Assembly (NCBI GenBank): GCA_027533105.1
Contig: JAPZTW010000006.1
Coordinates: 62,001-126,000 of the forward strand
DNA: 64,000 nucleotides
Direction of reading: 5' to 3'
From: Sphingomonadaceae bacterium
GTDB lineage: Bacteria; Pseudomonadota; Alphaproteobacteria; Sphingomonadales; Sphingomonadaceae
Part shown: positions 250-373 of the stretch, piece by piece
How the letters are laid out: each line of letters opens with the position of its first letter
Numbering within the stretch: the first letter of the stretch is position 1
Notes under the pieces: generated by a model
What the model was told of the DNA's origin: nothing
Database searches by the model: none
Seen by the model: the letters and a program-made list of their open reading frames with translations, nothing else
Made by a program: the position numbers and the translations under genes

Positions 250-373
250 GAGTCCGCAGCGAATCCCGGGACTCTAGATGCTGTGTCGGACTCGCTCTGT
301 TCCGCCTCTGACTCAGCCCGAATCACAAGGATTCCTGCGGAGTCGCCCCTTGACGCGGGACTCCGGATGACTC
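250..373. promoter_or_regulatory. Array of 10 GANTC (CcrM) sites at ~10-bp multiples upstream of ccrM
   Basis: Direct reading: GANTC starts at 250, 261, 270, 289, 310, 320, 330, 340, 359, 369; additional sites at 126 and 220. Confidence 0.9.

Follow-up and report, generated by a model that had tools for sequence, protein, structure and literature searches.

The region upstream of the GANTC methyltransferase gene ccrM in the window, the 64,000-nucleotide stretch of DNA analysed here, is probably a composite control region, in which dATP-sensing control by NrdR would be combined with a methylation-sensitive core promoter that is itself probably GcrA-assisted. By its sequence, this region consists of a predicted tandem NrdR operator at 238-286, placed at whole helical turns from a core of the form TTGACG-N3-GACTC-N5-GACTCA, and of a triplet of GANTC sites that fills the gap before the -35 element. 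More broadly, we lean, if only slightly, towards a picture in which a dNTP sensor is wired to ccrM by a phased NrdR operator with built-in methylation sites; this link would be old in Alphaproteobacteria, would sometimes lie inside the rnhB reading frame, and would tie the supply of precursors to replication and to methylation of the genome. The timing of CcrM plays a central part in the cell cycle of Alphaproteobacteria, and the control of ccrM is hardly known outside Caulobacter and a few relatives.

Results

The gene downstream of the array (411-1544, + strand) encodes a protein with Pfam N6_N4_Mtase and RAMA domains, and its best NCBIfam match is CcrM with 600 bits, under the model cut-off of 830; this agrees with the identification of the gene as ccrM in an earlier, sequence-only reading of the same DNA. 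We detected ccrM in 116 of 120 relatives. Upstream of ccrM in this genome lie rnhB, which encodes RNase HII, and, inserted between rnhB and ccrM, a divergent gene on the - strand (1-92, starting at 92 and extending beyond the window), whose 227-aa product was judged by eye to be alpha/beta-hydrolase-like. In many relatives, rnhB is located directly upstream of ccrM without an intervening gene. Throughout, counts for the genus refer to Novosphingobium, to which the window genome belongs.

Ten GANTC sites, to which no strand is assigned, start at 250, 261, 270, 289, 310, 320, 330, 340, 359 and 369, with further ones at 220 and 126; the ten positions and the additional site at 220 had been read exactly. 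Elsewhere in the window 62 sites were counted, about 1 per kb, which corresponds to 0.12 expected per 124 bp, and the density of the array is ~80x the window background (Poisson P ~1.6e-16 for ten GANTC in 124 bp). The whole window holds 74 GANTC compared with 254 in shuffles; as GANTC is thus depleted, the random expectation of one site per 256 bp used in the earlier reading was right in its contrast but understated it. A search for a repeated unit with flanks revealed no tandem repeat in the array, in which all four GANTC variants occur with unrelated flanks. This result ruled out tandem duplication as the origin of the array. With P ~1e-16, no tandem repeat, retention of the array in the genus and depletion of GANTC elsewhere in the window, the probability that chance, composition or recent repeat expansion produced the array is negligible.

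The best period of the array is 9.9 bp (R = 0.95), a value that none of 20,000 random ten-site placements in the same span equalled. The steps of ~10 bp proposed from the sequence therefore stand, but the single helix face proposed for the whole array was ruled out: at the B-DNA repeat of 10.5 bp, R is only 0.28 over all ten sites and 0.64 over the proximal six. Adjacent sites thus lie on one face, whereas from end to end the array shifts by about half a turn. With pattern searches of the same genome as the background, 9 of 22 GANTC triplets fitting within ~70 bp and 4 of 13 ten-bp GANTC pairs were found to fall in the ccrM array. These searches found no GANTC cluster of equal density elsewhere in the genome; comparable clusters at unrelated loci did not occur, and the runner-up is a run of five sites at a proA-like gene (named by eye).

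Essentially every Novosphingobium locus examined has a GANTC cluster upstream of ccrM (~4-14 sites), as do most of the other Sphingomonadaceae (2-10 sites) and the other families of the order (4-9 sites); a wider Alphaproteobacteria sample carried fewer sites, with zero in some genomes. The array is thus found at the ccrM loci of close relatives, and its ten-bp steps recur throughout Novosphingobium and other Sphingomonadaceae. It belongs to ccrM, as had been claimed, it is conserved, and the searches of the genome revealed no denser cluster of GANTC. We then compared promoters anchored on the -35 element (50 from the class, 43 from the order, 49 from other Sphingomonadaceae and 120 from Novosphingobium); related genomes are not independent, and the conservation counts given here overstate independence. 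The distal layer contains a mean of 3.4-3.9 GANTC in Sphingomonadaceae versus 0.7-1.5 elsewhere, and the proximal layer (10, 20 and 30 bp 5' of -35) a mean of 2.34 in Novosphingobium versus 0.43 in other Sphingomonadaceae.

Retention among aligned Novosphingobium sequences differed from site to site. GAGTC at 250-254 is kept in 87%, GAATC at 261-265, between the two predicted NrdR boxes, in 21%, GACTC at 270-274 in 80%, and GACTC at 289-293, directly 3' of the second box, in 88%; GACTC at 310-314 is all but confined to this genome, with ~1% of aligned relatives having it. In the triplet at 320-344, comprising GAATC at 320, GATTC at 330 and GAGTC at 340 (30, 20 and 10 bp 5' of -35, respectively), the retention of 320 and 330 is ~47%, a figure limited by indels, and 340 falls, together with 369, within the 80-88% band; 359 is kept in 26%. 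As judged by these comparisons, the array comprises three layers and is no uniform device: a class-wide core, sites at the edges of the predicted NrdR operator, and the triplet 320/330/340, which is a genus-level addition in Novosphingobium.

The sequence-only reading had treated the ten sites together as a single device, either a cooperative sensor of methylation state or a sink for CcrM/GcrA, through which ccrM would depend on local hemimethylation. Such a device would account for the density and the 9.9-bp periodicity, for GANTC clustering being near-unique to ccrM, and for the G/A/T/C letters being better kept than their flanks in aligned Novosphingobium (0.71 versus 0.52), and methylation is thought to affect ccrM transcription in Caulobacter (PMC3973325). 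However, the sites differ in age and partners: 250 and 270 are edges of NrdR boxes, 359 and 369 belong to the class-wide core, 320-340 are genus-level, and 310 is near-private. Moreover, no face is shared across the array at 10.5 bp, and clusters in other families of the order lack the 10-bp step; of the gaps between adjacent sites, 80% in the genus and the family and 53% in the class fall on a multiple of ten to within 1 bp, but in these other families 26% do, versus 30% by chance. One uniform ten-site sensor does not agree with this composition, and we consider that explanation unlikely.

Two palindromes resembling NrdR boxes were first noticed in aligned ccrM upstream sequences. In the window, predicted box 1, CCACCACATATTGAGT (238-253, + strand), forms the GANTC at 250 with its right edge and the next C, and predicted box 2, ACTCTAGATGCTGTGT (271-286, + strand), forms the GANTC at 270 with its left edge and the preceding G; the boxes are 33 bp apart from start to start, with a 17-bp spacer. 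The seed consensus of the NrdR box is acaCwAtATaTwGwgt, and in a scan with this consensus 20 Markov nulls were outscored at 97% of the loci in the genus and at 94% of those in the family, mostly at the 33-bp spacing. Because circularity was to be limited, a matrix was derived from ribonucleotide reductase (RNR) promoters alone, using only the RNR upstream sequences of 30 Sphingomonadaceae, with boxes chosen by a literature seed and ccrM excluded. With this matrix, ccrM upstream sequences scored 24.4 in the genus and 19.9 in the family, compared with ~-2.4 for Markov nulls and with 1.8 and 0.5, respectively, for coding controls, and they were above the best of 20 nulls in 98% and 94% of cases; only 48% of the class sample beats the nulls, and NrdR boxes at ccrM are thus not universal. 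The 238/271 pair itself scored 29.6 (null mean -0.3, best of 20 nulls 9.8), making it the top tandem pair of the 64-kb window, in which the next independent pair scored 9.1.

NrdR recognition requires two boxes, with a spacer of normally 15-17 bp, which is the measured optimum (PMC12051234; also PMC2892513). The ccrM box spacings of 32-33 bp (16-17-bp spacers) are inside this optimum, the start-to-start distance at Novosphingobium loci being 33 bp in 121/146 and 32 bp in 24/146. NrdR is encoded in the same genome (TIGR00244, 166 bits, over cut-off) by a gene downstream of a glyA-like gene. Both inner box edges form GANTC in 107 of 140 genus loci and 31 of 45 family loci. A composite pattern of box edge, GAGTC, N14-15, GACTC and box edge was found in 58 of the 151 Sphingomonadaceae genomes, never at more than one place, and a reversed-pattern control gave 0 matches in the 151 genomes; in the 35 cases with known ccrM coordinates, the composite always lay upstream of the gene and no more than 300 bp away. 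Sites 250 and 270 are, on the evidence of these alignments and scores, the inner edges of a predicted tandem NrdR operator that occurs family-wide. Binding of NrdR at 238-286 is very likely, and regulation of ccrM by NrdR is nearly as likely. The boxes lie ~64-112 bp upstream of -35, farther than most known NrdR operators. The possibility that the operator is a property of the divergent hydrolase gene was disfavoured, since the boxes persist in relatives in which rnhB is directly upstream of ccrM.

In the families of the order other than Sphingomonadaceae, an NrdR-like pair is located in the reading frame of the rnhB 3' end, with the boxes 32 bp apart in 42 of 42 cases (loci L074-L116). Synonymous reshuffling with the codon usage of each gene yielded a mean of 2.5 versus 21.1 observed (p < 0.01 in 41/42), and codon coincidence was thereby ruled out for the boxes in 41 of the 42. 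The same control applied to Sphingomonadaceae rnhB gave no signal, as expected because their boxes are intergenic. The predicted operator is thus kept in two different sequence contexts, which argues for selection on ccrM control.

The upstream GANTC words could instead be part of the site of a sequence-specific regulator, with methylation being irrelevant there. The N is indeed conserved at 250, 270 and 340, and in the GAGTCG just 5' of -35 the middle G and the following G are each at 99%. However, the middle base at 320, 330 and 369 is more variable than G/A/T/C, and the positions fit GANTC better than a longer word; we regard this explanation as quite unlikely.

We found that strict helical phase is a property of the predicted NrdR operator with respect to -35. 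When -35 was located by a rule tied to the GANTC pattern of the core, box 2 lay 67, 78, 89 or 99 ±1 bp from it in 43/43 other Sphingomonadaceae promoters and in 106/110 Novosphingobium promoters, the remaining four being at 40 bp (three) and 80 bp (one); in the window this distance is 79 bp. The step between these classes, ~10.7 bp, matches B-DNA, and the CcrM tree displays ~29 changes between them. Off-phase distances of 95, 107, 137 and 140 bp on this tree were discarded, a downstream TTGAC having been wrongly taken as -35; this explains four of the five off-phase cases, and the fifth case has a distance of 80 bp. In other parts of the class, a weaker but similar quantisation was observed nearer the promoter, at ~31/42/53/62/74 bp (n = 15, p = 0.002). 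This stricter phasing between predicted operator and promoter lies behind the impression of a phased array in the earlier reading.

Rows of methyladenine spaced by 10 bp might also alter DNA curvature or flexibility and in this way tune communication between NrdR and the promoter without a reader protein, an idea in keeping with the strict 10-bp steps and the helical phasing of operator and promoter. Since the period is 9.9 and not 10.5 bp, however, bends would not add up over the array, and we hold this mechanism to be very improbable.

Regarding the core promoter, an unguided scan found no consensus promoter, and the -35 and -10 elements were assigned by conservation. The -35 element, TTGACG (350-355, + strand), is common to Alphaproteobacteria. 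Two class-wide GACTC sites follow it, one in the promoter spacer (359-363), 9 bp after the first T of -35, and one abutting -10 (369-373), 19 bp after this T and retained by 88% of Novosphingobium. The final C of the latter also serves as the first base of a weak -10-like hexamer, CACCCT (373-378, + strand), at a 17-bp spacer, and the consensus at -10 in class and order is GACTCAnnnT. Of the promoters compared, 38/50 in the class, 42/43 in the order, 40/49 in the family and 100/120 in the genus have a GANTC in the core spacer, 8-9 bp after the first T of TTGAC; in the same samples, 28, 31, 33 and 96 promoters, respectively, have both core GANTC. A two-site core promoter (359, 369) is, by this conservation, common to most Alphaproteobacteria. 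As the core GANTC sit in the promoter, methylation could plausibly alter the transcription of ccrM, and methylation probably affects the transcription of ccrM itself in Caulobacter (PMC3973325); that methylation of the core sites matters here is likely.

GcrA binds methylated GANTC and aids sigma-70 RNA polymerase in promoter opening (PMC3667746; PMC7403470), and it is encoded in the same genome (PF07750, over cut-off). Only 1 of 12 GANTC, that at 320, fits the Caulobacter GcrA consensus YGAKTCK, and the core sites do not; Brevundimonas is without a YGAKTCK-type preference (PMC7987155). Because the core sites miss YGAKTCK, we do not class the ccrM promoter as a GcrA promoter but only as working like one, and GcrA is a moderately probable reader of the core methylation.

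The CtrA half-site TTAACCAT is absent from the sequence at 287-350, and it occurs upstream of -35 in 22/49 other Sphingomonadaceae and 22/120 Novosphingobium promoters. Proximal GANTC and the CtrA half-site are anticorrelated (Fisher p = 1.4e-5, relatedness ignored), and a replacement of CtrA half-sites by GANTC is suggested; in Novosphingobium the triplet, which often sits where relatives have the half-site, may use methylation to stand in for input from CtrA. That the triplet 320/330/340 adds methylation-dependent output is conceivable, with some doubt. A perfect DnaA box, TTATCCACA (TGTGGATAA on the + strand), is located at 378-386 on the - strand and is the only TTWTNCACA in the 64-kb window. 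It overlaps the expected start region of the ccrM transcript and may add an initiation cue; a DnaA box is present at the ccrM promoter in 23 of 49 other Sphingomonadaceae. A 2010 survey counted GANTC 5' of cell-cycle genes and drew no conclusion from them, and it recorded DnaA motifs at ccrM in cases lacking CtrA sites (PMC2877005).

Two further observations were made around the promoter and elsewhere. The TTTYGTTC-like sequence GCTCTGTTCC at 294-303, 3' of box 2 and of the GANTC at 289, is conserved across Sphingomonadaceae, lies outside every explanation offered here, and could belong to a second promoter. GANTC clusters are also present upstream of hemE in two Novosphingobium genomes (L394 1455-1656, in C8 of the window genome, and L406 1306-1480), and no TTWTNCACA DnaA box was found at either. 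In Caulobacter, hemE borders the replication origin.

Discussion

Our analysis points to a mechanistic model in which NrdR and methylation would act on ccrM together. NrdR with ATP and dATP forms a tetramer that binds and bends DNA and represses RNR genes at high dATP (PMC9110341). At ccrM, NrdR loaded with ATP and dATP would likewise occupy both boxes at high dATP and lower transcription as it does for RNR, possibly by bending or looping the DNA in helical phase, or by stopping transcription that reads through from rnhB. As replication uses up dNTPs, NrdR would be released, and ccrM would be expressed alongside the DNA precursors; if NrdR does repress ccrM at high dATP, the methyltransferase and the precursors would thus be made together. 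Promoter strength would be set by whether the core sites are methylated, a state probably read by GcrA together with sigma-70; the core GANTC, one of which lies against the weak -10 (CACCCT), would make initiation methylation-dependent, and passage of the fork would thereby add a second cue. Since the operator edges carry GANTC, the binding of NrdR may also affect methylation there and be affected by it.

The predicted operator shares with the NrdR operators of RNR genes two palindromic boxes about three helical turns apart, recognition by the same matrix, and the presence of an NrdR gene. By contrast, its target is a DNA methyltransferase gene, the inner edges of its boxes have been turned into GANTC, and it is located 64-112 bp 5' of -35, whereas the RNR operators overlap the promoter. 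The CtrA-activated ccrM promoter of Caulobacter likewise carries GANTC at ccrM's own promoter; the promoter studied here differs in having many more GANTC, no TTAACCAT at 287-350, and, in addition, a predicted NrdR operator and a DnaA box. Methylated sigma-70 promoters activated by GcrA, such as those of Caulobacter mipZ and ctrA P1, also have GANTC in the core promoter in a genome encoding GcrA, but the ccrM core sites are off the YGAKTCK consensus. The GATC clusters of the E. coli Dam/SeqA system are similarly dense methylation sites that could report replication, although both the methyltransferase and the site are different.

In the literature searched, with subscription papers outside its scope, we found no description of NrdR acting at ccrM or of an array like this one. 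If true, an NrdR operator at ccrM would offer a simple and testable way for dNTP pools to act on DNA methylation, could explain ccrM timing where CtrA does not regulate ccrM, and would extend the reach of NrdR beyond RNR genes. The quantised, whole-turn operator distance constitutes an unusually clean natural helical-phasing experiment.

NrdR-like boxes and GANTC sites were also seen together at other loci. The RNR promoters of Sphingomonadaceae (C7:50433-50922 in the window genome; L361-L389) bear several GANTC, some of which overlap NrdR box edges (GATTCAGTATCTAGTGG). The reductase of the window genome is probably of class II. In one order-level genome (G075), nine GANTC and a tandem NrdR-like pair, ACACAAGATATCGATT and AGTCAACATATTGATT, with a distance of 31 bp, were found at L400 1262-1418; the pair is located between a gene of no assigned name and a flavin-reductase-like gene, and this locus is a possible second NrdR/GANTC target. 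At the end of the chromosome record of the same genome (L401 1738-1811), five GANTC occur with a single strong NrdR-like box, AATCAATATCTTGTGG.
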